In this document: positions 570 through 29,655 of the stretch, one piece after another
How the letters are laid out: each line of letters begins with the position of its first letter
Numbering within the stretch: position 1 is the first letter of the stretch
Source: a virus
DNA: 30,430 bases
IMG/VR virus record: IMGVR_UViG_3300008267_000325
Location: 1-30,430 of that record
Strand: one strand, 5' to 3'
The notes under the pieces: model-generated
What the model saw: the letters and a program-made list of their open reading frames with translations, nothing else
Database searches by the model: none
What the model was told of the DNA's origin: nothing
Translations under genes and position numbers: made by a program

Positions 570-2609
570 TTATGAACTTGATGTTGGTAAAGCGAGGCTA
601 GCTCCGGCTGCGGAGGCGGCTTGAACTATACTTTGCTTTATATCTGATAGCTTTCCTTCCATTTTTGCTTCATATTTTTGCTGACAGTCAAGGCACCTGA
701 ATGGAATTGCGTCAATTTGGCTTCCAGAACCTCCGCTAACAGCTCCCTGAGCAGAGGTTGACGCTGAGGTTGAAGTAGGAGCTCCTACCGCAGCAACTGC
801 TCTTACTGGAGCTTTTAGACCATCAGAAGTGGACGCTGCGGCATCTGACTTTATACTAGCTATTCCTTTTTTTAAACCATCAGTCATTAGATCGACAACT
901 GGTTTAAATATGGAAATCAATTCTTTCTTATAAGTCTCGGCACTTTTCTCTGCAGTTGCTCTAGAGAGGTCTGGTCCATAGGTGCCACGCTGAGTTATGT
1001 CAGTAGCTTGTTGCTCTAAATCGTTAAATTTACCAACCTTTGTCTTAAACTCTTCTCCGGGTGCATTTCCACGAAACCTTTCTGCCATAGCATAAGCTGA
1101 TGGAGCTGCATCGGCTGTAGCTTGCATTTCAGCCAATTTTTCCATTGAATCATATCCAAAGGCGCGAGATAGACCTAATCTTCCTTCAGCAGTCACTTTC
1201 GTTAAAGAGTCTGTAGCGTCAATTGTATCACGCTCACCTACATTTCTTCTTGCCATACCCTCAAGCATTCTAGAAGCCTCTGTGTCACTTAAGCCCTTCC
1301 CCAAAGGAGTTGCCTGTAAAAGTCTTAATTGCTCTAATCTTTTACCAGCAGCTTCCGCCCCTCCGGATCTAGCATCGGCTAAGGTAACTATTTCTCCTAG
1401 CTGCTGCTGTAGGGCGTCTTGCATCTTGGAAAAAACTTCTCCTCCCCTACCTTCTGTAAACATGGATTCAATTTCAAAGGCACCTTCGGCACCTCCAGGA
1501 CCACCAGTCAATTCAGAAATCCACATTTTTTGAGACATGGTTAATTGACCTAAATTTTGAGTAAATTTAGTGGATAAATTTGCTGCATTTTCGGCGCTTA
1601 AACCAGACTCTCTTAATCTTTTAGAAAGGTTGGACATTGGCCCCAATAAACTTTGAGCATTATCACCCATAAGTTGAAGACCGGCGGATACACTTCCAAC
1701 ATTTCTAACCATTTGATCATAAGATAAGCCAGCAATATCTGCAGCCGTTCTTAAGCTAGCGGCAAACTTCATAGCTTTAGTGGCGTTTTCTTGACCGGCA
1801 AGAGTGTCAACATTGGACTGTTCTTTAAGAGTCCTTAGAGCGCCCATAATTGATTCTGAAGATACGCCAGCACCTTCAGCAACTTCTTGTACAGAGGTTA
1901 TTAAACTTCTATTTTTTTGAGTACCAGCTTCGGTGGCAGATACTACGCCACCTAAGGCTCCCTTTAAACTACTTAATGAATTAACTAATCTATATGTTTC
2001 ATCAACATTTCCGGTAGTGAGAGCAGATTCCCTTATTTGTTGAAAAGTATCTTGGACTAGGGCTGCCTGCCCCATTCTATCTTTTCCAAGAGATTCTCTA
2101 AATTGAGACCTCTCTCCTCTTGCCTCAGCTCCAGTGGCTAAAACTTGAAGTAAGCTTCTGGCGATGGCTGCTTGTTCTGCCGCCCTCTGAGTAAATTCTA
2201 CTCCCTTAGGTAATATTCCGCCTAAAAACATTTGAGCTGGGTCTTTAGCGTCCGCCAATTTTTGATAATTGGCACGCTCCGACATCATTCCGGGAGATAG
2301 TCCAGAGTATCCATAATTAGCGAATGGATCTGTTTTACTTCCACCAATAAGCATGCCTAAGGCAAATGGAGCTACGGTTGGATAATTAGAATAAGCTCCA
2401 ATTGCCTTTGATGTACCCGATTCCATAGATCCAGACCCGCTGACCCTATCTGCAACACCTCTATTAGAAACAATTTGAGAAAGTACAACCGTCAATTGTT
2501 CAAGCCTACCGCCCATTAACTGTAAAGTATCGGTAATTTTACTTGTTTCCGTTGATGAAAAAGTAGGCTCTTTAGCAGGTTCAGTAGTAGTGGTGGTAGT
2601 TGGCGCCAT
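570..2609 (-). CDS. Probable tail tape measure protein
   Basis: This is a 679-residue, Ala/Gly/Gln/Ser-rich, mostly helical protein with no enzyme motif. A Thr-rich N-terminus leads into long helical segments with many Met-Ala and Gln-Leu repeats. Near the C-terminus there is an isolated FRCLDCQQK motif (CxxC), then a helix and a low-complexity Ala/Ser tail. The position is the main argument: it comes directly after the tube gene and the frameshifted chaperone pair, where the tape measure sits in nearly all long-tailed phages. Tape measures set tail length at roughly 1.5 angstrom per residue, which would predict a tail of about 100 nm. The ATG at 2609 has an A-rich leader with no Shine-Dalgarno sequence, so it may rely on translation arriving from the chaperone gene 17 bases upstream. 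A different tail-interior protein is possible. Confidence 0.65.
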   Translation of the reverse strand: MAPTTTTTTEPAKEPTFSSTETSKITDTLQLMGGRLEQLTVVLSQIVSNRGVADRVSGSGSMESGTSKAIGAYSNYPTVAPFALGMLIGGSKTDPFANYGYSGLSPGMMSERANYQKLADAKDPAQMFLGGILPKGVEFTQRAAEQAAIARSLLQVLATGAEARGERSQFRESLGKDRMGQAALVQDTFQQIRESALTTGNVDETYRLVNSLSSLKGALGGVVSATEAGTQKNRSLITSVQEVAEGAGVSSESIMGALRTLKEQSNVDTLAGQENATKAMKFAASLRTAADIAGLSYDQMVRNVGSVSAGLQLMGDNAQSLLGPMSNLSKRLRESGLSAENAANLSTKFTQNLGQLTMSQKMWISELTGGPGGAEGAFEIESMFTEGRGGEVFSKMQDALQQQLGEIVTLADARSGGAEAAGKRLEQLRLLQATPLGKGLSDTEASRMLEGMARRNVGERDTIDATDSLTKVTAEGRLGLSRAFGYDSMEKLAEMQATADAAPSAYAMAERFRGNAPGEEFKTKVGKFNDLEQQATDITQRGTYGPDLSRATAEKSAETYKKELISIFKPVVDLMTDGLKKGIASIKSDAAASTSDGLKAPVRAVAAVGAPTSTSASTSAQGAVSGGSGSQIDAIPFRCLDCQQKYEAKMEGKLSDIKQSIVQAASAAGASLALPTSSS

Positions 2610-2626: not shown

Positions 2627-2974
2627 TTATTGTATTTTTTTATGCCTTCTTCTCTTTAAAGATGTCTTATTTTCCGTATTTTTTCTAGAACTTTTAACAA
2701 TTTCAAGAGATTTCTCAAACGCTTCATCAGAGCTTTCGATTGTATTATTATCTTTATCAAGAATTTTACTTAACATAGCCGGATTAGCGAATCCGCCTAT
2801 CAAATAGGCGTGGTTTTTTTGAAATTCAATATTTTCTTTTCTGTCTTCTATCCAGCTATTAAACATCCAAGATCTTTGAACCGGATCCATCTCTGTAATT
2901 AAAGGATCATCTGGCATGACTCCAAAAGTTTTACAAAGATACCAAATAAACTTATGATCCGGCTCAGTTACTAT
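2627..2974 (-). CDS. Tail assembly chaperone, frameshift-expressed C-terminal part (lambda GT-like)
   Basis: This frame is entered by a -1 shift at the end of the preceding chaperone gene. It is open from 2974 to the TAA at 2627-2629 and adds 115 residues, giving a fusion of about 317 residues spanning 3579-2627. The first residues after the shift read IVTEPDHKFIWYLCKTFGV and lead into MPDDPLITEMDPVQRSWMF. An ATG exists at 2917 (96 residues), but starting there would cut off the conserved-looking YLCKTFGV part and it has no good ribosome site. In lambda, the analogous T segment is made only as the G-T fusion and recruits tail tube subunits to the tape measure. The order tube, G, T, tape measure matches that arrangement. 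The C-terminus is strongly basic (KRRRHKK). Confidence 0.85.
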   Translation of the reverse strand: MVTEPDHKFIWYLCKTFGVMPDDPLITEMDPVQRSWMFNSWIEDRKENIEFQKNHAYLIGGFANPAMLSKILDKDNNTIESSDEAFEKSLEIVKSSRKNTENKTSLKRRRHKKIQ

Positions 2975-3579
2975 TTTTTTAGTTCTTCAGATACCTGTTC
3001 CAAATCTTCTGTTGTTTTAATGGAAAATTTTTCTTTAATTTCTTTATTTAGCAATAGATACTCTTGATAGATTCTTTCTACTACAACTTCATCTAACTCA
3101 TCAAGAAAGTTTAGTTTAGCCTGAAGAGAATCATCTCCTAAAAACATATCGACTTCTATATCAGAAACAAAGGTAATGGCTCTAGATAGGATTTGCCTTC
3201 TAATTTCAAAAGGAAACTCTATTGTACCATCAAATTTCATTGCTTCCGCAAGGGCTTGTCTATTATGTTTATTTTTTAAAGATTGAACGACGAACTTAGT
3301 CTCTCCAATTTGGATTTCTCTACTCAATTGAGTCATGCCACAAAGAATTTCGATTCTTTTCTTTGCACCTTCTGAAATTTTATCTTGTTGAAGGTTTTGG
3401 GCATTTCTCGTTCTTAGATGCTCCCTATAATCAATTTCAGATGATTGAGGCATGTGCTGAGTAGCACTTGCACTATGAGAATAATGCTGATGATCTTGCT
3501 CGCTATAATCATCAACCACAAATTCCCTCATTGGTTGTTGGTATGTCTTAGAGCCTATTGCACTACTAATCTTTGCCAT
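2971..3579 (-). CDS. Tail assembly chaperone (lambda G-like)
   Basis: This 202-residue protein starts at an ATG preceded by a strong AAGGAGAG ribosome site and ends in LKK-stop at the slippery sequence. The N-terminus (about 1-75) is polar and probably disordered, rich in His, Gln and Ser. The remainder is helical and acidic, including a segment resembling tail chaperones and T4-type structural helpers: a beta strand (TKFVVQSLKNK), then helices (ALAEAMKF, IRRQILSRAITFV, LNFLDELDEVVVERIYQEYLLL). Proteins of this type bind the tape measure and keep it soluble until the tube polymerises around it. It lies between the tube gene and the tape measure and probably gives two products, this short one in excess and the frameshifted fusion. 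Confidence 0.8.
   Translation of the reverse strand: MAKISSAIGSKTYQQPMREFVVDDYSEQDHQHYSHSASATQHMPQSSEIDYREHLRTRNAQNLQQDKISEGAKKRIEILCGMTQLSREIQIGETKFVVQSLKNKHNRQALAEAMKFDGTIEFPFEIRRQILSRAITFVSDIEVDMFLGDDSLQAKLNFLDELDEVVVERIYQEYLLLNKEIKEKFSIKTTEDLEQVSEELKK
2974..2980 (-). promoter_or_regulatory. Programmed -1 ribosomal frameshift site (A AAA AAA)
   Basis: Seven A residues on the minus strand overlap the final codons of the first chaperone, read CTA AAA AAA TAG. This is the canonical X XXY YYZ slippery heptamer in the correct phase, followed at once by a stop codon. Slipping back one base turns AAA TAG into ATA GTA and opens the second chaperone frame. A possible upstream helper is an AGG about 13 bases before the site. 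A possible downstream stimulator is the 7-base pair of complements CCGGATC (2962-2956) and GATCCGG (2887-2881), with a long loop. Both helpers are speculative; the heptamer and its phase are seen directly. Confidence 0.87.
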
Positions 3580-3712: not shown

Positions 3713-4354
3713 TCAGAAGAGATCGTCGCCAGCTAAATCAATTAGACCAGGGGCATCGAGGGCACCTCTACGACCGCCAACATCAGCTTGTTTCTCATAT
3801 CCGCCTGGATCAACGAAAGTAGGAATGTTTCTGGGCGTAATAAGGTCTCCAACAGGAGAGCCATTTCCTAAGAAGCTATAAATAAATTCTACAGAAAAAG
3901 ACATGTTTTCGCTAACGATCCAGTCAGTAGAGTTATACTTATATCCAATTTTGGTAATCCAGCAATTTTTTAAAACTGTAGTAACCCAATTGCTACTATC
4001 TTCAGATTGCTGGTCGATCACATGGATATCGAAAGGATATCTTTGAGATCCGACGTGAATGAAGCTTCTTCCAAAGGCTTGAGCAGCTCTCATTTTATCA
4101 AATCTAGTTCTGGTTGCACTTACGGTATAAGTTACTGGTTTGCTAGGTGCAGAATCAACTGTGCCGTCAGTACCAACTTCATATACTTGTTTTACTTCCC
4201 TATTCTCATCAATGCTTAAATCTTGAATCGCTCCAACAGGAGTGTTACCAACCATAATAAGAATATTGGTGCTTAAGGCAGTGCTGGTTTTGTTTTTACC
4301 GTTTGGTAAAGTTAATGTAGATTGAGTGTTAATTCCGGATGATATTGTTGCCAT
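3713..4354 (-). CDS. Tail tube protein
   Basis: This 213-residue protein follows the sheath gene by 26 bases and has an AAGGAAA ribosome site. After a flexible N-terminus it shows a beta-sandwich pattern typical of myophage tube subunits: ILIMVGNTPVGAIQDLSIDENREV, then a GTDGTVDSAP loop, VTYTVSATRTRF, and WVTTVLKNCWITKIGYKYNS with ENMSFSVEFIYSF near the end. The 'VGAIQDLSIDENR...EVG' and 'S.T..R.RFD' blocks are characteristic of T4 gp19-like and similar tubes. The C-terminal 30 residues are Gly/Asp-rich and probably disordered. Subunits stack as hexamers inside the sheath. Neighbours on both sides (sheath upstream, chaperones and tape measure downstream) agree with this. Confidence 0.85.
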   Translation of the reverse strand: MATISSGINTQSTLTLPNGKNKTSTALSTNILIMVGNTPVGAIQDLSIDENREVKQVYEVGTDGTVDSAPSKPVTYTVSATRTRFDKMRAAQAFGRSFIHVGSQRYPFDIHVIDQQSEDSSNWVTTVLKNCWITKIGYKYNSTDWIVSENMSFSVEFIYSFLGNGSPVGDLITPRNIPTFVDPGGYEKQADVGGRRGALDAPGLIDLAGDDLF

Positions 4355-4380: not shown

Positions 4381-7149
4381 TTAAATTAACCCAACACCAA
4401 CTTTAATATAAATCCAATTGACTGGGTAAGTGGGCTGAACCTTGACGGTAACATTCCATTGCCTTGGATCAGAGGCATCTCTTTGGACGGTTAAGTTTGC
4501 ATAGGCGGTAATTAGACCTTGACTGACAAAGGAATTTAGAGCGCTAATTGCCTGGGCTACCAAGGTAACCTGAGTTGTTTTGCTTTCAGCTTGACCAATG
4601 TAGCCAGCAAAGCTGCTTCTTAGGGTCTTAGCAATCCTATCACGAATAAAGATGATGCTAATCTCCTGCTCTTCAGCAAATCCGCTTTGAGAGGTGGTTA
4701 TGCCCCAAACAACCCTACCGCCACCAGAAACTGGCTGTAGGGTACATACGCCAGAAGAAGCTAAAGATTCTAGAGTTAATTGAGAGTAAAGCTTGTCTCT
4801 TAAGATTGAGAATCCGGAAAGAATCTTGTTGGTGAGAGGAACTTCAACTCTTGGCTGGGCTGACATGTGACCGGCAGCGGCGGCGGCAATATAGAAACCG
4901 TCAACGAGAGCATTGCTGGTCCCAGCTTGAACTACTATTTGATCTGGATAGAAGTATACGCATCTGTAGGTGGAGCCAAAGGCGTCTGATACGGAGTAAT
5001 TAGCAATGTCTTCTCCATCAAGAACCTCTCCAGGATTATCTCCTTGAATGCCTTCTAGAATGCCGATGTCTTCAACGGCTACGGGCTCATTTGTCCCATC
5101 AGAAGAGGAGCCAATAAGATTTACTGGCTTTAATCCAGCAATTGCTCCAGTAAACAAAACTCTCTCTTTTCTATTGCGAATGCTGCTCATTGATAAGCAG
5201 TGAGCGAGGGCGTTTTGGAAAATTACAGAGATGGTTGATTTGGGCAATGGAACAACTATATCAACATTTACTTTCTCTAGAGTCTCAAGGGCATCAATCC
5301 AACCGGGATCGTAAAAGTCCTTATCTTTATTATCAACAAAGCTAACTCTTAAAGAGTTTCCATCTGGAACAACGTCTTGAGTTACGACGACGTAATAGCT
5401 ATCTAAATCTGGGTCTAAGATAGAGTAATTTAATGAGCTTTCATGCTCTACAGATTTTTTAATTTCCAATCTGCCATTGACATCTAAATTAGAGACTTCC
5501 CAGATCCCTTGAACATCTCCAGCAGAGACGATTTCTATTTTAGCGCCAAGCGTTATGATGGCTGCGTCAAATGGAGCATCATTTCTTCCCAAAAGAGCAT
5601 TTCTATTATCACTATTAACAATTATATAACCATCAGTGCTGGAATATCCGTCTCCTGTAACATTGGTTATAGGTAAATTTGTTAAAGGATCTACGGCACG
5701 TAAAACTAGTCCAGAGGTTACATTGGTTGATGGTTCATATGCATACTCTGACCCGTTTTGTATTACCGTACAATAAGCCTTTCCTGAATTTACAGAGTTT
5801 ATTCTATACTCAGCATTATTGCTAACGTTGCTAGAATCTTTAATTTTTAAAATTTTATTTACATATTTATTTGTAAAAGTAAATCCTGAAATTTCAAATA
5901 TGCCAGCCATTCCTGAATTTGGTGACGCGGTGTTTCTAGAAATCTCTCCATTAAAGCCAAACTTAATAGTGGCATTATTTTCATAATTTTTAATTACAGA
6001 ATAGCTAAACTCTTCTCCAAAAATAAATGCAGATAGATCTTCATCAACTGTATAGAAAGGTGTTTTATTGGGGGTAACTTGCTTTTCTTCGTTGCTGGTA
6101 TTGGTTACAAAGAAGTGAACTTGAGAATCTAGATCTGGTTGATATCCAAGTGGTAGGGGAAAGATAAAATCATCTTCGCTTAAAGAGTTAGATTGTACAG
6201 AATCTGAAACTTTAACATAAGTTCTTCTTGGCATTGGGGGCTTGCATTGCAAGGCGACGATAGATGATGCTTGGTTAGCAAAGGCTAATTGAGCTCCTAA
6301 GCTTAAAGTGTTATCAGTGCTTGGAATACCGTAACGAAGGACCACGTCATTTAGAGCTTGTAACTGTATAGGATCGTTAATAAAACTTTCTGGTATGTAG
6401 GTAGCGGTTAAAGAGTCGTTAGGATTTAATTGATTGCTCTGAACCTTAACGGTAAAGGTATCTCCTATTCTTAGTAAATCTCCCGTTCCTTGATTGATGG
6501 CAAATTCTAAAAATCCATTATCTCTTTTTACGCCATCAGACATCCACACTACGTCATTGCCTAATGAATCTTTTTTTCTACCAGAAATGCTACCAACAGC
6601 GATAAACTTAGCTGTATTGATAATTGGGTTAGAGGAGCTATCCAATCTAACGTCAACGCATCTAATATTCCAAGTTTCTCTGGGAGCATTTTGACTAATT
6701 AAAGATAGGTCGGTCATGTACCCATCATGTTGAGGGGGTATATATTCAGAACCTCCAAAATCTTGGAGGAAGGCTCCCTGCATTTCAATCTTTCCGGTGG
6801 TAGGATCTAAGCGATAATCATATTTATTATCAAAGGGAAGTTCATTAATAGATTGCTCAATTCCAACTAGAGGGGCTCCATTTCTAAAAAGAGTTGTTCT
6901 ATTGGGAACAACGGGGAAGAGTCCAAGTGAAAAGCGTCTTCCATTAGGAACTCCAGAAGCTGTATAGTTTGGACCAAGACCATCTTTGGATTTTCCAATT
7001 GCATAAGAAACTAAAGTTTGATTGGTTATGCCTTCACCCATAATTGCAGGGACGCGTAAACCACCAGCAACCGCTGTGCCTCTTGAATCAGTTACCACAT
7101 CGGTAAATACGCCTGGAAGAACATTTGTTGCGCCTGGGATATTGCTCAT
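4381..7149 (-). CDS. Tail sheath protein
   Basis: At 922 residues this is long for a sheath subunit. The start ATG has an ACGGAGCG ribosome site. The N-terminus (ATNVLPGVFTDVV, AGGLRVPAIMGEG) matches the opening of sheath proteins, which lends a strand to the neighbouring subunit. The C-terminal part, from about residue 620, carries the conserved sheath core: VNVDIVVPLP, then GFYIAAAAAGHMSAQPR, LTNKILSGF and GVCTLQPVSGGGRVVWGITT. It ends with EISIIFIRDRIAKTLRSSFAGYIGQ and the final strand NVTVKVQPTYPVNWIYIKV. The middle, about residues 150-600, is a variable beta-rich insertion likely exposed on the tail surface. It identifies the phage as contractile-tailed. It is followed closely by the tube gene. 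Confidence 0.92.
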   Translation of the reverse strand: MSNIPGATNVLPGVFTDVVTDSRGTAVAGGLRVPAIMGEGITNQTLVSYAIGKSKDGLGPNYTASGVPNGRRFSLGLFPVVPNRTTLFRNGAPLVGIEQSINELPFDNKYDYRLDPTTGKIEMQGAFLQDFGGSEYIPPQHDGYMTDLSLISQNAPRETWNIRCVDVRLDSSSNPIINTAKFIAVGSISGRKKDSLGNDVVWMSDGVKRDNGFLEFAINQGTGDLLRIGDTFTVKVQSNQLNPNDSLTATYIPESFINDPIQLQALNDVVLRYGIPSTDNTLSLGAQLAFANQASSIVALQCKPPMPRRTYVKVSDSVQSNSLSEDDFIFPLPLGYQPDLDSQVHFFVTNTSNEEKQVTPNKTPFYTVDEDLSAFIFGEEFSYSVIKNYENNATIKFGFNGEISRNTASPNSGMAGIFEISGFTFTNKYVNKILKIKDSSNVSNNAEYRINSVNSGKAYCTVIQNGSEYAYEPSTNVTSGLVLRAVDPLTNLPITNVTGDGYSSTDGYIIVNSDNRNALLGRNDAPFDAAIITLGAKIEIVSAGDVQGIWEVSNLDVNGRLEIKKSVEHESSLNYSILDPDLDSYYVVVTQDVVPDGNSLRVSFVDNKDKDFYDPGWIDALETLEKVNVDIVVPLPKSTISVIFQNALAHCLSMSSIRNRKERVLFTGAIAGLKPVNLIGSSSDGTNEPVAVEDIGILEGIQGDNPGEVLDGEDIANYSVSDAFGSTYRCVYFYPDQIVVQAGTSNALVDGFYIAAAAAGHMSAQPRVEVPLTNKILSGFSILRDKLYSQLTLESLASSGVCTLQPVSGGGRVVWGITTSQSGFAEEQEISIIFIRDRIAKTLRSSFAGYIGQAESKTTQVTLVAQAISALNSFVSQGLITAYANLTVQRDASDPRQWNVTVKVQPTYPVNWIYIKVGVGLI

Positions 7150-19676: not shown

Positions 19677-20354
19677 ATGCAAAAGCAGTGTCGTTCATGT
19701 AAGATTTTAAAAAATAAAGATCAATTTTCTCCATCTCATTTTCAACAAAAAAATCCTAAATGCAAATTATGTAATGCCACATATATGAAAGATTTTAGGC
19801 TTAAGCATGATTCTACTGATAGGAAAAGGTACGATCAATCCTATTATTTACAAAATAAAGAAAAAATTCTTAAACGCAAAAGAGACCGCTACCAATCTCT
19901 TTTTAAAAAAGATAAAGTTAAAAAAACCAGAACTGAAGTCTTGCTAAGAAGAAACGCCTATTATAAAATAAAAAGAAGAACAAATATTAATTTTAAATTA
20001 CGCTGTTGCGTTTCTTCCGGTATAAATTTTTATTTAAATAAAAATAAAAAATCATATTTAAAATATCTACCTTACTCCATTGAAGATTTAAGATCTCATT
20101 TAGAGAGTATCTTTGAGCCATGGATGAACTGGAAAAATCATGGAAAATATAATCCAAAATCTTGGAACGATGAAGATCCTGCAACTTGGACCTGGCAAAT
20201 AGATCACATCATCCCGCAGTCTAGTTTTAAATACAATTCCATGGAAGATGTCTCTTTTCAAGAGTGCTGGGCTTTATCCAATTTAAGACCGTATTCGGCT
20301 AAAGATAATTTTTTAGAGGGGGTTAAGAGGATTAGGCACCCCAAACCTACTTGA
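19677..20354 (+). CDS. HNH homing endonuclease with N-terminal zinc finger
   Basis: The protein has 225 residues. The N-terminus has a Cys4 finger (Cys5, Cys8, Cys29, Cys32: QCRSCKI and KCKLCNA), as in many phage HNH enzymes. A long, very basic helical region (about 40-105) should bind DNA. The HNH core is at the C-terminus: WQIDHIIPQSSF with Asp176-His177, CWALSNLRPY with Asn202, and AKDNFLEG with Asn211. Such free-standing enzymes nick or cut related phage genomes lacking the gene and copy themselves in. It is on the plus strand, against the late genes, 29 bases from the start of the metallopeptidase gene. Its 3' end overlaps a LAGLIDADG gene by 8 bases. No ribosome site precedes the ATG, suggesting low expression. 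Confidence 0.88.
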   Translation: MQKQCRSCKILKNKDQFSPSHFQQKNPKCKLCNATYMKDFRLKHDSTDRKRYDQSYYLQNKEKILKRKRDRYQSLFKKDKVKKTRTEVLLRRNAYYKIKRRTNINFKLRCCVSSGINFYLNKNKKSYLKYLPYSIEDLRSHLESIFEPWMNWKNHGKYNPKSWNDEDPATWTWQIDHIIPQSSFKYNSMEDVSFQECWALSNLRPYSAKDNFLEGVKRIRHPKPT

Positions 20355-21822
20355 TGGCGTTGTGAAAGCCTTCTTTAAAGTGGCTTAAGCAATTGCCTTG
20401 CTCTATGGCTCTAGGAATGAAATTGCCCATTACAGAATATAGGTTAAAATTATTTATTAAATCTTCCTTTATTTTTCTGCTAAAAATTATAAAGTAGTAT
20501 TTAGACTTTTGTTGTCTGATTTTTCCATTATATTTTAAAATATTTTTTATCTTTAATATTTCTTGTTCTCTTTTGGCGCAAAATTTTATTCTTGGCTCTT
20601 TTTTGTCAATTCCGCCAAGAGCAATTAAGGAACCAATTAAATAAGCGCTATCTTCGCTTAAGTTTTCAAATAAATTTTCATCAAAATAATTTTTTTCTTT
20701 CTTAAGATAGCTTATATTGTGTAATTTAAAAAAACTTCTCAATCTAGACGTGCTAGTCTTAAGCTCTGAAGCCAAGGCGGTCAGGCTTTTATTTTTACTA
20801 TAAAGTCTGGCAAGCTCATCAATTCCTATTTTATTTAATCTTTTTAACCCAGAGGCGCAGTTTTCGGAGTTTATTTTGGCTTGCTGGGCTATTAAATATT
20901 TTCTTTCTAAATAAACGGTGGCATCTTTGTACAGGAATTCTTTGATTGAGGTAATAGCTCCGTTACCTCCATAATCTAAAACTCCTATATTTGAATTTTT
21001 CCTTATAGGAGATGTCCTTTTAGAGATGTTGCAATTTTTTTCTAAAATTTCTCTGTATTTTTCTAGAAACCAAGTGGTACCGCGCAAAGAAAAGAAAACT
21101 TGTTTTGTTTTTTTATTTTTCTTTAACGTATTAAAGAAAAAAGAACCATCGCCATCATTATACCCCCTCATGAAATGATGTATTAAAGGGCTATCTTCTA
21201 TCTGTTTTGGAAACTGATAAATTAAACTTTTCCTGGGAACAATGTTGAATCTATTAAATAGATCATCTGCCATTTTTTTAGACACTATTGTAAAGGAGGC
21301 TGATTTGGTTCCATCCTTAGACTCCATGTGCCTGACAGGATTATTTGCCTTGAGTAAGTTTTTTATTTTATAAACAATATCTCGATCCCTCTCGGCTAAC
21401 CCGATACATATCTCATATGTAATAGACCCTGTTTTATTTTTTCTATGCTTCACGCACCCGTCTGCCGCAATAAAACCAGCTACATAAAAAGCCTCTTCCG
21501 TATCTCTGCTAAAAAAATCATCATCGCAGGTATATCTTGTTAATGGTTTGTATTTTATTCCATGTTTTTTCATGGCATATAGGGCACCCTGCTTTGATAC
21601 GGAAAGCTCTTTAGCCACTAAGCCAATTGTTTTTAATCTTCCATAAGCTTCCTCTAATAATTTTTTACTAGGCAGAGGTTTCCTATTTAATTTAAAAAAT
21701 ATATTGTTAGTTCTAACAAAATAATACAAAGAAGAATAACTTATTTTGAGTTCTTTTGAAGTTAGAGAAATATTGCCATTGTTTAATTCTAAGTGTTTTT
21801 TAATTAAATCTAGATCTAGCAC
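20347..21822 (-). CDS. LAGLIDADG homing endonuclease, duplicated with decayed second half
   Basis: The 491-residue protein starts with GTG at 21822; an overlapping ATG two bases upstream reads straight into a stop, and no in-frame ATG comes before about residue 74. Residues 1-95 hold one or two helix-turn-helix units. The first nuclease unit has both LAGLIDADG helices, 114-122 (VAGFIAADG) and 216-226 (HFMRGYNDGDG), and ends with FLYKDATVYLERKY. Residues 330-370 are another helix-turn-helix, followed by a second unit at 395-404 (LIGSLIALGG) and 481-490 (HFKEGFHNAI) in which the catalytic aspartates are lost and the C-terminus is cut short. This suggests a tandem fusion in which only the first half can be active. 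It is on the same strand as the late genes, and its stop overlaps the HNH gene. Confidence 0.87.
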   Translation of the reverse strand: MLDLDLIKKHLELNNGNISLTSKELKISYSSLYYFVRTNNIFFKLNRKPLPSKKLLEEAYGRLKTIGLVAKELSVSKQGALYAMKKHGIKYKPLTRYTCDDDFFSRDTEEAFYVAGFIAADGCVKHRKNKTGSITYEICIGLAERDRDIVYKIKNLLKANNPVRHMESKDGTKSASFTIVSKKMADDLFNRFNIVPRKSLIYQFPKQIEDSPLIHHFMRGYNDGDGSFFFNTLKKNKKTKQVFFSLRGTTWFLEKYREILEKNCNISKRTSPIRKNSNIGVLDYGGNGAITSIKEFLYKDATVYLERKYLIAQQAKINSENCASGLKRLNKIGIDELARLYSKNKSLTALASELKTSTSRLRSFFKLHNISYLKKEKNYFDENLFENLSEDSAYLIGSLIALGGIDKKEPRIKFCAKREQEILKIKNILKYNGKIRQQKSKYYFIIFSRKIKEDLINNFNLYSVMGNFIPRAIEQGNCLSHFKEGFHNAIK

Positions 21823-22815: not shown

Positions 22816-23631
22816 ATGACTATAAAAAATAGTTTATCTAAAGATATGCTAGAATATTGGTATGAAGAGCTTGGATCTTTGCAAAAGGTATCGGATCACC
22901 TATCAATACCAATTGATACAATCTATGGATATGCTAAAAAATTTAATTTAAAGTACTCTAAAAAATATAAGGGAGTTTATTCTTGCAATCAAAATTTCTT
23001 TGAGCAAGATACCCCTGAAAGCTTTTATTTAGCTGGCTTTGTTGCTGCAGACGGATCTGTTCAATATAGAAAATATTCAAAAATATTAAAAATAACATTA
23101 TCAGAAAAAGATTTTGCACATCTAGAAAAAATAAAAAAAACATTAGATAGCACTCATCCGATCAAAAAGTATTTAGTTAAGAAAAGCAAGCTGGTCAATA
23201 AAGAATCTAATTCCGTAGAGTTACAGATAGCCAATTCAAAGCTAGTGGATGATTTGAAGAGATTTGGTATTATTCCAAACAAAACTAAAATATACCAAAT
23301 GCCAGAATGGTTAATTAATCACGATCTTATTAGTCATTTTATGAGGGGCTATTTTGATGGCGATGGCACCATTTCCTATTCTGGTCTTGGAAAAGGTAGA
23401 ACCGTTAAGCAGCTTAGTTGGAGTATCCTCGGTACAGAAGCCTTTATAGATCAATATAGGAAGATATTTTCAAGGGCTCTTAAAATTAAAGAGTTTAAAA
23501 TTTTAAAGCATAAAAGCGTTTTTAAAATTTCAACAAGTGGAAATAAATCTGTATTAAAAATAAAAAATTATTTATATAAGGATGCTACTCTCTATTTAGA
23601 TAGAAAATTTAAAAAAATAAATTTATTGTAA
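22816..23631 (+). CDS. LAGLIDADG homing endonuclease
   Basis: The protein has 271 residues and a complete single-chain architecture: an N-terminal helix-turn-helix (about 8-48), the first LAGLIDADG helix at 72-80 (LAGFVAADG) and the second at 174-184 (HFMRGYFDGDG), both with the catalytic Asp. The end shows YLYKDATLYLDRKF. It is clearly the sister of the first unit of the 491-residue endonuclease: both share 'FY.AGF.AADG.V', 'KIYQ.P', 'HFMRGY.DGDG' and 'YKDAT.YL.RK'. It runs against the late genes, starts 28 bases from the neck gene and overlaps the 3' end of the cell-wall hydrolase candidate by 9 bases. No ribosome site is visible, and the 28-base gap cannot hold both a promoter and a leader, so its promoter must lie inside the neighbouring gene. 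Confidence 0.9.
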   Translation: MTIKNSLSKDMLEYWYEELGSLQKVSDHLSIPIDTIYGYAKKFNLKYSKKYKGVYSCNQNFFEQDTPESFYLAGFVAADGSVQYRKYSKILKITLSEKDFAHLEKIKKTLDSTHPIKKYLVKKSKLVNKESNSVELQIANSKLVDDLKRFGIIPNKTKIYQMPEWLINHDLISHFMRGYFDGDGTISYSGLGKGRTVKQLSWSILGTEAFIDQYRKIFSRALKIKEFKILKHKSVFKISTSGNKSVLKIKNYLYKDATLYLDRKFKKINLL

Positions 23632-24253: not shown

Positions 24254-25732
24254 TCAATAAAATCTCAATCTTGCCATGTTGCAAGATACACTGGTGGATG
24301 CATTACTGGTGTATAATCTGGCTTCGTAAATAGTTGCAGTCCCTGGTATTGATAGGGAAGAGCTATTTTGAAAAGTGGTCGTACCCGAAGATGTAGAAAT
24401 AGAGGTGACCAATGTGTTAGTGGCGGGATTATATAATTCAAGGGTGACAGTGTCAGATCCATTAGAGGATAACAATCCTTCAAATTTCATGGATGTATAG
24501 GAAGATAACAGTGTGGGATCTATGTAAGTCTTGCCTATGATAAGGGGTAATCCGGAGACAGAATTTGTAGAGGCGGTTCCAACAAATATGGAATCCACCC
24601 CAACTGCAGATGATAAGGTTCCAGAAGTTAATTTTAAGCCAGGACCAACTGTAACGTTAGATCCATTACCGGCAGCTAATTGAGAGCTCGTTCCGGTAAA
24701 AGAGGCGCCAGTAGGTCCGGTGGGTCCAGTAGGACCGGCATAGCCTCCTGAAGTATTAAGGACCGCAGAGAACCAAGAAGTAGCGCCCGCCGCCTCTCTC
24801 ACTAGCCTTCTAACTCCTCCAGATGTTTGATAGGTAACAAATTGAATATAATCAGTGGTTCCATTGAGGTAAATTACTCTAGTTCCTGTAATGGTAGTTC
24901 GATATTCTCCAATTGCCTCTGCTAAATATACGGTGGTAGCCCCATTCTTTTTTATTTGACAATTAGACCAACCGGGATTGCCTCCAGCGGAAGTGGCTTC
25001 ATATAGGGCACAAAAAGAAACTGTATAGTATCCAGGAATATTTGGTTGAAATTTATAAGTACCTTGATCCCACCACCCATTTGGATCATCCTGATCTATA
25101 AAGTGAATAACCGTATCCTCTGCATCTTGTATGAATTGATAATCTGCGTAACCATCAACGGGCTTTAATGAGCCTTGAACTATATAGTTAGCTGCTGATA
25201 AGTTGGCAGATGGACCTGTAGGTCCAGTAGCTCCGGCATTTCCCTGAGCTCCTGTGGGTCCGGTAGCTCCGGTTGGTCCAGTAGTTCCTGTAGCACCTGA
25301 AGATCCAACAGCCCCTTGAGCACCTGTAGGACCGGTAGCTCCCTGAGCTCCCGTAGGTCCAACAGCACCATCACTCATTGTTTCAATGACAGTTAGATGA
25401 GCACGATCTTGAATATCGACAACAACGGTGGCAGGTATTCTGACCTGTATTGAGTGTAAGCCTTCAGATAAATTTTCAACATTAAATGTACATGGTATGG
25501 TCATGTGCATGTCGGTTTGATTGAAGTAAAATGATGTCGAGGCAGCAACGCTACCATCAATCAATAAATCAAAAACTTTCAAACCAGTCGCAGATGCAAA
25601 GGAGGTAAAGCTAAGATTGAATAGTAATTTACTATCAGAAATAGAGGTGTACGACGTGGTCCACTCAGTGACAATTGCTTGACCGGATCTAGATGTAGCG
25701 GCGACATTATCCAATAATTGGGTACCAGACAT
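24254..25732 (-). CDS. Collagen-like tail fibre with C1q/TNF-like domain
   Basis: This 492-residue protein has an AAGGGA ribosome site. Residues 1-115 are a beta-sandwich ([25 protein letters not shown], then [13 protein letters not shown]). Residues 122-174 are uninterrupted collagen Gly-x-y triplets, and a shorter run lies at 333-343 ([11 protein letters not shown]). Between them residues about 180-330 resemble a C1q/TNF-like jelly roll ([53 protein letters not shown]). A last beta-domain fills 375-492 ([31 protein letters not shown]). Collagen triplets would force a trimer, typical of phage fibres. It follows the small 103-residue protein by 24 bases, and both are probably surface proteins. 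A head fibre rather than a tail fibre is possible. Confidence 0.8.
25211..25369 (-). repeat. Collagen Gly-x-y triplet repeat within the fibre gene
   Basis: The DNA here encodes 53 residues with Gly at every third position, mainly GPT, GAQ, GAT and GSS triplets. At the base level it is a degenerate 9-base repeat of the type ggtcctaca/ggagctcag read on the minus strand. Such repeats can expand or contract by slippage, so the length may vary between related phages. Confidence 0.9.
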
Positions 25733-26808: not shown

Positions 26809-27876
26809 TTACTTATTATTGATAAACATATAAATTGATTCGTTCTTGGTAATTCCGGCACCTTTGTTTAAGTGACTGCGAACGGTTCTTAAATAAACTT
26901 CTTCTACTACCGGACCAAATACCTCTTCTGCCATTTGCAACATTCGGGGATAATTTTTAACATTTAATCCAAACCATTTTCCTGGTTTTAACATAAATTT
27001 AACATTTTCTAATGTTTGTTTCCAATAGATATTGTAAAAATAATCCTCTCCTTGATTATACGCCTGAGCTAAATCTTTAGAATATACTTCTTGATCATAA
27101 TAGGGAGGGCTGCTAAAACTAAAATCAATAGAATTTTCTTCCAGCCTAACGTGCTCTGAGCCATTATTGATCAAGGTTATATCTTCTAATTTAAGAGCAC
27201 CTTTCATTGCATCTAATTCGTCTGTGGTCCAGGGATCAGTGCCGATATATTTTCTTCGGCAGGCAGCAGCTCCTAACATTCTACCTCCCCAACCGCAAGA
27301 ATAGTCATAAACGGTATCTCCCTCATTGCTGTATTTCATATACATATATTTGGCAATAGAGGGTTTAAAAATAGAAATGCTGGGAACTACGCGAGAGGAT
27401 CTCATGCCTTGAATCATCATGCGAAAGCAAATGTTGAACGTTTCGTCATTATCAGGATCCTTCCAGTCTAAGCCCAAACGATTTTGAATTAGCTTTCTTA
27501 GCTTATCATCATCGTTAAAAATTTCTTTCATGGTAGGGTAGCCACTTTCTGTGGCTTCATAAAATTTATGGCAAAAATATTTGCAAATATCGGTTGCCAG
27601 GGAGTCATTATTAAATAGTTCATTTTTACTGAGATCAGGTTGAAACTGACACAGTCTTTTCCAACTAGAAATTACTTTAGTTAAATTGTCAGGATAAATC
27701 CAGCCAGTAGATCTAAAATGTTGAAATAAAGGTTCAATTAAAGCAAATCTCTCTTCCCTGGAGAGGGAGTCAATATACCCGGTAGTGAGTAGGTTTCCAT
27801 TAATAGAAACAATTCTCTCAAAATCTGATTGAGATCTTTTTTCAGACTGCTTCTGAGTTCTAACTTTAGCTGACAT
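26809..27876 (-). CDS. DNA methyltransferase (adenine-N6 / cytosine-N4 type)
   Basis: The 355-residue protein has an AGAAGG ribosome site. It carries the AdoMet-binding motif I at about 190-200 (VYDYSCGWGGRMLGAA), a motif II-like acidic end of strand 2 (YIGTDP, 211-215) and the catalytic motif IV SSPPYYD at 255-261, followed by a helix and MLKPGKWFGLNVKN. Motif I comes before motif IV with no large domain between them, so recognition probably relies on the N-terminal helical region or the C-terminus. The SPPY tetrad indicates methylation of an exocyclic amino group, N6 of adenine or N4 of cytosine. No restriction enzyme gene is near, so it looks like an orphan phage methylase, probably guarding the genome against host restriction. 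It ends at a bidirectional terminator. Confidence 0.85.
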   Translation of the reverse strand: MSAKVRTQKQSEKRSQSDFERIVSINGNLLTTGYIDSLSREERFALIEPLFQHFRSTGWIYPDNLTKVISSWKRLCQFQPDLSKNELFNNDSLATDICKYFCHKFYEATESGYPTMKEIFNDDDKLRKLIQNRLGLDWKDPDNDETFNICFRMMIQGMRSSRVVPSISIFKPSIAKYMYMKYSNEGDTVYDYSCGWGGRMLGAAACRRKYIGTDPWTTDELDAMKGALKLEDITLINNGSEHVRLEENSIDFSFSSPPYYDQEVYSKDLAQAYNQGEDYFYNIYWKQTLENVKFMLKPGKWFGLNVKNYPRMLQMAEEVFGPVVEEVYLRTVRSHLNKGAGITKNESIYMFINNK

Positions 27877-27948: not shown

Positions 27949-28596
27949 CTATTTTTTTAATAAATAAAAGCACTCCAAAAAAGCCTTCTTGGCTTGCCGA
28001 TGGGCATCAGTATCGGGAGTATTCCAATCGCTTTCTTCCCCAAGCATTTTATCGGCTTCACTTAAGCGGTCTTTTGTTTGCTTTACCTGCTCCTCTGCCT
28101 TAGATTTAGACTCTTGCGCTTTTCTCTTGGTTTCCTCCTCTATAAACTCCACAGCCTCTTCTCTGGTCATGTCTAGAGCTTCCATCATCATATTAATTGC
28201 CTTCTCCCTACTTGCTTGCCTTGCCGCCTCAATCTCTGCATCCATCTCTTGTTGAGTCTTGGTAGGTCTTGCTGGTTGCCAGGCGGATTGGCTCGAAGTT
28301 GAGGGACTTTGAGCTGGTGATCTGCCAAAAGGATAGGGAAATTCTTCTGCGTCCCGAATGTAATCCATGGGTTTGTGATGAGGTCTATGAGCCATATCGC
28401 TGTCAAGTTCCGATCTTCTTTTATCCTGCTCCGTTCTTCGGCGGATATAATCGGCAGCTTCTTGAACTGTTTCAGGTGGCTTATCATCTAGATCGTACAC
28501 TCTTCCGAAGTGATCTCTTGTCGGTCTAGATAAACTATCCCAGCTTCTTGATCCAGAAAATTCACTGCCTGCCCATTTATATTTTTTATTTTTCAT
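27949..28596 (-). CDS. Charged hypothetical protein, disordered N-half and helical C-half
   Basis: The 215-residue product is not recognised. The first 115 residues are polar with many Arg, Asp, Pro and Ser (SRSWDSLSRPTRDHFGRVYDLDD, PFGRSPAQSPSTSSQ), with a short helix (TVQEAADYIRRRTEQDKRR). Residues 116-195 form a long charged helix, probably a coiled coil, containing INMMMEALDMTREEAVEFIEEE, which has the look of a UBA-like three-helix motif. It ends with a short hydrophobic helix (KKAFLECFYLLKK). It lies between the capsid gene and the methyltransferase, where scaffold, head vertex or decoration proteins can occur, but the homing gene now separates it from the capsid gene. It has no ribosome site near its ATG. 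Confidence 0.6.
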   Translation of the reverse strand: MKNKKYKWAGSEFSGSRSWDSLSRPTRDHFGRVYDLDDKPPETVQEAADYIRRRTEQDKRRSELDSDMAHRPHHKPMDYIRDAEEFPYPFGRSPAQSPSTSSQSAWQPARPTKTQQEMDAEIEAARQASREKAINMMMEALDMTREEAVEFIEEETKRKAQESKSKAEEQVKQTKDRLSEADKMLGEESDWNTPDTDAHRQAKKAFLECFYLLKK

Positions 28597-28644: not shown

Positions 28645-29655
28645 ATGATTGATTATTGGTACAAGGGTGATTATCATGTTTTTATGATTGAAGCACAAAT
28701 AAAAGAAATGGTAGAGAGGGGGTTATCTCTAAAAAGGATACAGTCTAAAATTAATCTTCCCTTGGAGAATTTAAAGAAAATTATTAAAGATAATAATTTT
28801 TTCTTAAAAAAAGAAGAGTTCTCCAATGATAAAATAGACTTTATTTTAAAGTTATACGCAGAAGGTGTATCAGCAAAAAATATTTCTTGTAAATATGGAA
28901 TTGACAAGAGGAGAATTATTTCATGGGCAAAAAGTTCTGGTATTTTAAGGGATAAAAATCAATCTCATAGATTTACAGACTTTAATCAAAAAATATTTGA
29001 CTGCATTGATTCAGAGGAAAAAGCATACTGGTTAGGCTTTTTCTACGCAGACGCCTATAACAATAATTCAACCAATACAGTTTCCATTTCATTGCAGGTA
29101 AGCGATCTAGACCACTTAAAAAAATTAAGTAAATTTTTTAATCTACCCGAAAGTAAAATTAAATTATATAAAAACAAATACAATCATCAATATTATACTT
29201 TAAAGATTTATAGCAAGCATCTATGCCAAACCCTAAATAAATTAGGGTGTCCGCAAGCCAAAAGTTTTATTATCAAATATCCTGATTGGCTAAGTGAAAC
29301 TTTAAGGGTACACTTTATAAGAGGAATGTTTGATGGTGACGGTAGTTTAGCCTGCAGATCTAATAAAGAGTGGAAGTGGTCATTAGTCACCACACAAGAA
29401 TGTGCTAAAGATATAATCTCTATTATAGAGAAAGATTTAAATCTAAAAGTTAATCTCTCTTATATCTCTAAGAGTGGAAATAATACATACGAAATAGAGT
29501 CTAATGGAAATAAAAAAGTATTATTATTGTCCAGTTGGCTATATTCTAAATCTAGCCCATTTGCGAGACTGGATAGGAAGTATGATAAATTTTTAGCCCT
29601 CTTAGAGCAGCAGCAAAATGTAAAAAAGAGAGCCGCGAAATGCGACTCTCTTTAA
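28645..29655 (+). CDS. LAGLIDADG homing endonuclease next to the capsid gene
   Basis: The protein has 336 residues and a GGGAGG ribosome site, the only homing gene here with a good one. Two helix-turn-helix units fill residues about 14-100 (GLSLKRIQSKINLPL and GVSAKNISCKYGID). The first LAGLIDADG helix is at 129-137 (LGFFYADAY) and the second at 223-233 (HFIRGMFDGDG), both with the catalytic Asp, and LDRKYDKF lies near the end. It belongs to the same family as the two other LAGLIDADG genes but is more distant. It is convergent with the capsid gene, and its last ten codons (KKRAAKCDSL) are encoded by the stem of that gene's terminator. A second in-frame ATG at residue 14 could be the real start, but the ribosome site favours the first. 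Confidence 0.88.
   Translation: MIDYWYKGDYHVFMIEAQIKEMVERGLSLKRIQSKINLPLENLKKIIKDNNFFLKKEEFSNDKIDFILKLYAEGVSAKNISCKYGIDKRRIISWAKSSGILRDKNQSHRFTDFNQKIFDCIDSEEKAYWLGFFYADAYNNNSTNTVSISLQVSDLDHLKKLSKFFNLPESKIKLYKNKYNHQYYTLKIYSKHLCQTLNKLGCPQAKSFIIKYPDWLSETLRVHFIRGMFDGDGSLACRSNKEWKWSLVTTQECAKDIISIIEKDLNLKVNLSYISKSGNNTYEIESNGNKKVLLLSSWLYSKSSPFARLDRKYDKFLALLEQQQNVKKRAAKCDSL
29625..29653 (-). terminator. Intrinsic terminator of the capsid gene, inside the homing gene's 3' end
   Basis: On the minus strand AAAGAGAG, an A-C mismatch, three C-G pairs and a wobble pair close a three-base loop, followed by six Ts partly in the stem. It lies 29 bases after the capsid gene's double stop (TGA TAG). In the plus direction the stem ends in TTTAAAA, a poorer U tract. 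A second near-palindrome (AAAACTAACTT / AAGCTAGCTTTT, about 29655-29677) lies between the stop and the stem. Confidence 0.8.

Follow-up and report, generated by a model that had tools for sequence, protein, structure and literature searches.

The question raised by this locus is whether two overlapping reading frames among the tail genes of a phage are two genes, each with its own start codon, or one gene from which the ribosome makes two products by changing frame near the end of the first. The window analysed here is the whole IMG/VR contig, 30,430 bases in length, and the chaperone frames and the tail genes lie on its minus strand, which the first-pass annotation of this DNA had not stated. 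It is considered here that one gene almost certainly gives rise to two tail assembly chaperones by a programmed −1 ribosomal frameshift. This reading draws on the comparison of relatives, in which the slip site, its phase, the coding character of the −1 frame beginning at the slip point, the lack of a conserved second start, the selection on codons of a Shine-Dalgarno (SD)-like element and a compensated stem can be seen.

The locus and its two predicted proteins

In the window the genes are in the order sheath, tube, G, T, probable tape measure and tail tube initiator (Table 1), and the two overlapping frames lie between the tube and the tape measure genes, as in a pair of the lambda G/GT type. 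The earlier claim that the order is that of lambda G/GT is borne out with related phages. The probable tail tube protein of the window is matched by gp180 of Bacillus phage G, the gene of which is directly upstream of the phage G chaperones. The tape measure protein is so named because of its position and a PHROG family match in one relative (E 1.4e-7); the window's own copy gave no match in the family searches. The phage is uncultured and contractile-tailed, of a myovirus lineage.

Table 1. Features of the window with their coordinates, strand and the evidence for each
Feature	Position	Strand	Basis
ORF1, short tail assembly chaperone (G-like), 202 aa	2971..3579	−	ORF calls, hhalign, Foldseek
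Slippery heptamer A AAA AAA, in phase	2974..2980	−	sequence and 124 relatives
TAG stop directly 3' of the heptamer	2973..2971	−	sequence
−1 frame extension (T-like), 115 codons and stop, read after a slip alone	2627..2973	−	homology, hhalign
Position of SD-like element (consensus AAGGAGGT; weak GAACAGGT in the window)	2993..3000	−	codon bias, anti-SD duplex
Downstream stem, 5' arm, U GAGCCGGAUC, start 7 nt past the heptamer	2956..2966	−	folding
Downstream stem, 3' arm, GAUCCGGUUC A, codons D-P-V-Q	2877..2887	−	folding
Probable tape measure protein, 679 aa, adjoining the fusion gene 3'	570..2609	−	position conserved in relatives
Tail tube initiator protein, truncated at the contig end	3..554	−	Pfam PF23980, E 5.7e-7
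Probable tail tube protein	3713..4354	−	PHROG 985 virion structural protein, E 6e-10; phage G gp180 match
Tail sheath protein	4381..7149	−	Pfam PF17482, E 1.5e-6; PHROG 279 tail sheath, E 4e-18
LAGLIDADG-like and HNH genes together	20347..21822; 22816..23631; 28645..29655; 19677..20354	−; +; +; +	Pfam

Among the structural genes there are also homing endonuclease-like genes, three of them LAGLIDADG by Pfam and one with a weak HNH match. A protein with collagen-like repeats, probably a fibre, is encoded at 24254..25732 (−), and one with a weak DNA methylase match and an SPPYYDQE motif at 26809..27876 (−).

As judged by profiles and a predicted fold, G and T are tail assembly chaperones related to gp181/gp182 of Bacillus phage G. 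The search against chaperone families, which had been suggested earlier as a check, led to known tail assembly chaperones for both G and T by hhalign, Foldseek and PHROG. With hhalign, G matches gp181 of phage G at E 1.7e-10, and T matches both the gp182 extension, i.e., the T part of phage G (E 3.4e-7), and the T part of the chaperone of SPO1-like Adastra (E 1.2e-8). The predicted fold of G, with a mean pLDDT of 78, matches Gp181 in a viral structure library at a Foldseek E of 1.5e-6 and several other tail assembly chaperones there as well, and members of both the G and the T alignment have hits to tail assembly chaperone families of PHROG, each single hit being weak. Among solved structures no convincing relative was found by profile for G and T or by fold for G, and tblastn of ORF1 against isolated phages gave no match. 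PHROG 1316, an RNA polymerase beta subunit family by name, matches T over a short stretch; the name is likely a misannotation and the match was disregarded.

The slip site

ORF1 ends with GAA GAA CTA AAA AAA TAG (protein ...EELKK), and thus the in-phase heptamer A AAA AAA, which had been pointed out earlier, is seen on the minus strand at 2980..2974 with the X XXY YYZ pattern of −1 programmed ribosomal frameshifting. A −1 slip at the heptamer leads into 115 codons without a stop, up to the one at 2627, and the resulting fusion has 202 + 115 = 317 aa and reads across the junction as ...EELKKIVTEPDHK; the lengths given before are reproduced. We infer the slippage in vivo and its rate, the pathway being as follows. 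The majority of the ribosomes would terminate at TAG, with the G-like protein of 202 aa as their product, and the minority that slip by −1 on A AAA AAA would go on to the GT-like fusion of 317 aa. If the analogy with lambda is followed, G would coat the tape measure protein and the T part of GT would recruit the tail tube subunits. In E. coli A AAA AAA is less slippery than A AAA AAG (PMC5009743), which may not be the behaviour of the host here, and the efficiency measured at an HK97-like chaperone site is about 6-7% (PMC3711429), because of which a low frameshift rate would be expected at this site.

It is noted that the heptamer alone is weak evidence, because in the AT-rich window (36% GC) A AAA AAA occurs in phase 9 times in 9455 codons, i.e., about once per 1000 codons; it is the comparison of relatives that settles the question. 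As a negative control, the gene at 28596..27949 also ends with LKK and a stop on A7, and there the −1 frame closes at once.

The relatives, lying on well over 100 contigs, were found by scans with the two halves of the fusion and with the alignments of these halves. We examined 111 of them together with 13 from a scan with search patterns that are independent of the junction (taken downstream of it), 124 in all; the codon and folding statistics use 86 representatives, sequences with less than 90% DNA identity. In the aligned set the identity of the T protein to that of the window is 37-69%. Exactly seven A are present at the slip point in 125/125 sequences (the window and the 124 relatives), each with a T as the next base and a zero-frame stop right after A7 or one codon later, and therefore the site is not there by chance. 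Among those examined, no relative was found to be without the heptamer or to have a −1 frame stop at the junction, which is the outcome of the alignment proposed earlier as a check. In the 86 representatives the A7 run has T on both sides. Both Lys codons are AAA in 86/86, with AAA making up 70% of the background (p ~1e-26, the relatives being treated as independent), and the Leu or Ile codon before the Lys pair always ends in A in the 86 (p ~4e-23, again with relatives treated as independent).

Of the ways to read the site other than tandem slipping, the one that survives best, though we consider it unlikely, is that a single tRNA slips while the A site holds a stop codon (AAA followed by TAA or TAG). 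The stop follows the heptamer directly in about 93% of the representatives, as such a slip would have it, and the protein cannot tell the two mechanisms apart because product and frame are identical. In 6/86 representatives, however, TCG or TCA precedes the stop and the full heptamer is kept, and the first A of the heptamer, which is needed for tandem slipping only, is invariant.

Two further codon preferences are seen in the relatives shortly before A7. The Asp codon there is GAC in 47/80 relatives, with a background of 17%, and just before A7 CTA is favoured over TTA; the two codons lie 8 and 5 nt ahead of the point where the frame switches (2978..2985 in the window). The bias may have its cause in the E site or in a weak pairing to the SD.

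Many of the relatives are on contigs of 200-480 kb, and thus the lineage includes jumbo phages. One relative (L153) is on a contig of 383 kb that had been assigned in binning to a Chitinophagales bacterium; this may be a jumbo phage contig and may hint at Bacteroidota hosts.

Elements on both sides of the slip site

The probable stimulators, an upstream SD-like element and a downstream RNA stem, were absent from the first-pass annotation. The slip would probably be helped by an internal SD-like sequence about 13 nt upstream and probably also by an RNA stem 7-8 nt downstream.

The SD-like AAGGAGGT is located 13 nt 5' of the heptamer in many relatives and is partial in most others. Of the representatives, 47/86 have GGAGG at about 13 nt upstream and 11/86 have no recognisable element. 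The Glu codon of the element is GAG in 66 and GAA in 7 sequences, while at the Glu position nine bases further on GAG is found in 4 and GAA in 67 (p ~1e-28 for the contrast, with the relatives treated as independent). From this codon usage, the element is selected at synonymous sites in the relatives. The predicted duplex with an anti-SD, which may not be that of the host, has a median of −11.0 kcal/mol over 86 sequences against a background mean of −1.7, and for the element of the window it is −4.8 kcal/mol only; the element is probably weak in this phage. SD-like stimulation of −1 frameshifting is known for elements 6-17 nt upstream (PMC4066793), and the element of the lineage, weak as it is in the window, falls in that range. 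RNAalifold also predicted a small upstream hairpin, in which AGGU of the SD would pair with ACCU immediately 5' of A7. We do not claim it, because the mismatches show no clear co-variation and G-U pairs make such pairing almost automatic.

Downstream, with positions numbered from the first base of the post-slip codon, the Pro codons at +15 and +93 are CCG in 76% and 78%, against 10% in the background, and the Val codon is GTT in 98%, against 47%. Pairing was suspected because of the bias at the Pro codons. A pairing of GAACCGGA (+12..+19) and TCCGGTTC (+92..+99) is found, the stem of the window being formed by UGAGCCGGAUC with GAUCCGGUUCA. The first paired base is +11 or +12 in 85/86 representatives, so that the stem starts 7-8 nt after the heptamer, a distance within the about 5-9 nt expected of a downstream structure. 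RNAalifold recovers the stem unaided; Rfam gave no match in the window.

It could be argued that the pairing is the by-product of a constraint on codons or protein rather than an RNA stimulator, since the arms encode the conserved residues E-P and D-P-V. We regard this as very unlikely, on account of the codon preferences just given and of the following results. When synonymous codons are permuted with the protein and the codon usage held fixed, the segment +12..+107 folds at −24.7 kcal/mol compared with −17.7 kcal/mol in the shuffles, with a combined Z of −20.8, which is extreme here only and far beyond the other folding windows, one control window in G also being more stable than its shuffles to a lesser degree (Z −8.3). 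The window sequence alone folds at z −3.44. Moreover, changes are compensated across the arms in separate clades: C-G has become U-A in L144 and L175, a change for which L164 and L171 have the intermediate U.G, and in L219 G-C has become U-A at the cost of an amino-acid change from DPV to DQV. The column covariation of the far stem is modest because the arms are nearly invariant. By these folding and compensation data, the downstream stem is conserved as an RNA element.

While the 5' arm, formed by the Glu-Pro codons, is constant, its 3' partner is at one of three places depending on the lineage. With Pro CCG the partner is the far arm (61/65), with Pro CCA it is a local UCUGGUUC at about +31..+38 (8/13), and with Pro CCT a local AGGUUC at about +26..+31 (5/6). 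Because of the individual compensatory changes, this correspondence of codon and partner, and the shuffle test, we think it probable that this myovirus lineage has a rewirable frameshift stimulator, in which a constant 5' arm is used with three 3' partners that are switched with the wobble base of the Pro codon, the protein sometimes being altered. In the open-access literature we found neither the signal of this lineage nor a switch of stem partners at a chaperone site described.

The same fusion could also arise from ordinary decoding if the polymerase slipped on A7 and made mRNAs one base longer or shorter. Polymerases can slip on homopolymer A runs (PMC4066793), and the run here always has exactly seven A. 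Such transcriptional slippage has no need for the phase, for an SD-like element at 13 nt or for a stem, however, all of which appear to be selected. Moreover, phage G and two relatives (L155, L156 and L157, around position 3000) use A AAA AAC, where the run is shorter and the ribosomal heptamer rule is kept, and the window has many other A7 runs, so that such runs are common here. We thus hold slippage of the polymerase to be highly improbable, and the ribosomal −1 frameshift is retained.

Finally, that ORF1 and a 96-aa protein started from the ATG at 2917 are two separate genes, as a mechanical ORF list has them with an ATG that does exist there, is scarcely credible and is rejected because this ATG is not conserved: it is absent in many relatives, some of which have no ATG, GTG or TTG at all within 30 codons of the beginning of that frame, the SD-like element has no start codon of the −1 frame at initiation distance, both A7 and the stem are kept in the relatives, and the homology of the −1 frame begins at the slip point (KIIxEPEHRFxWyLCK), the residues between it and the ATG being among the best conserved. 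The segment preceding the ATG in the window reads KIVTEPDHKFIWYLCKTFGV in the −1 frame. The first-pass annotation had held that these residues look real and that a two-gene call misplaces the second start, and had named as contrary evidence a conserved start at 2917 without conservation upstream; the opposite is found, and both of its claims stand.

Implications and comparison with known systems

With the joined reading, the annotation of the chaperone gene is corrected in a large group of uncultured phages, where a plain ORF call places a false start and misses the fusion protein. Moreover, the group supplies about 90 natural variants of a single frameshift signal, with three stem layouts and natural compensatory mutants included. 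These are direct test material for how stem position and SD strength relate to the ratio of the two assembly proteins.

Among the nearest known systems is Bacillus phage G, where gp181/gp182, annotated as a joined tail assembly chaperone, has homologous G and T parts and the same gene order. Its G is shorter and its T tail much longer than in the window, and at the homologous junction it has A AAA AAC directly before TAG, in place of the A AAA AAA of the window. It has an SD-like AAAGGA 12 nt upstream, and on the downstream side a small hairpin follows after 6 nt, a spacing close to that of the stem here but with a different sequence. The short downstream hairpin GACACUUAUAGUC of phage G and L156 is a parallel version of the same signal. 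In the SPO1-like Bacillus phages SP8 and Adastra, the tape measure chaperone has a homologous T part that is joined by a frameshift at a similar place, but the frame offset is +1, not −1, and there is no A7 (L011 8001..8117, L012 8001..8117); the direction of the shift differs and the protein pair is kept.

In lambda, a −1 frameshift shortly before G ends yields two chaperone products, G and GT, from a locus between the tube and the tape measure genes (PMC5009743), which is the same arrangement as here; lambda is a siphovirus, and the likeness is one of products and gene arrangement. E. coli dnaX has, as here, an SD-like element, an A-rich Lys-Lys heptamer and a 3' stem-loop (PMC3711429, PMC5009743); unlike here, it is a host gene with A AAA AAG, and its −1 product is the short one whereas here it is the long one. 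IS911 shares with the present signal an SD-like GGAG upstream and a 3' structure, which there is branched with a three-way junction (PMC5009743, PMC4066793) and which we count as a likeness, but it is a transposase gene. It also uses AUU-mediated initiation, according to the title of a reference cited in PMC4066793, whereas here no ATG, GTG or TTG stands at initiation distance. On the best reading of the sequence comparisons, the signal would be a −1 frameshift of the lambda G/GT type with stimulators of the dnaX and IS911 kind on both sides (PMC5009743, PMC3711429).
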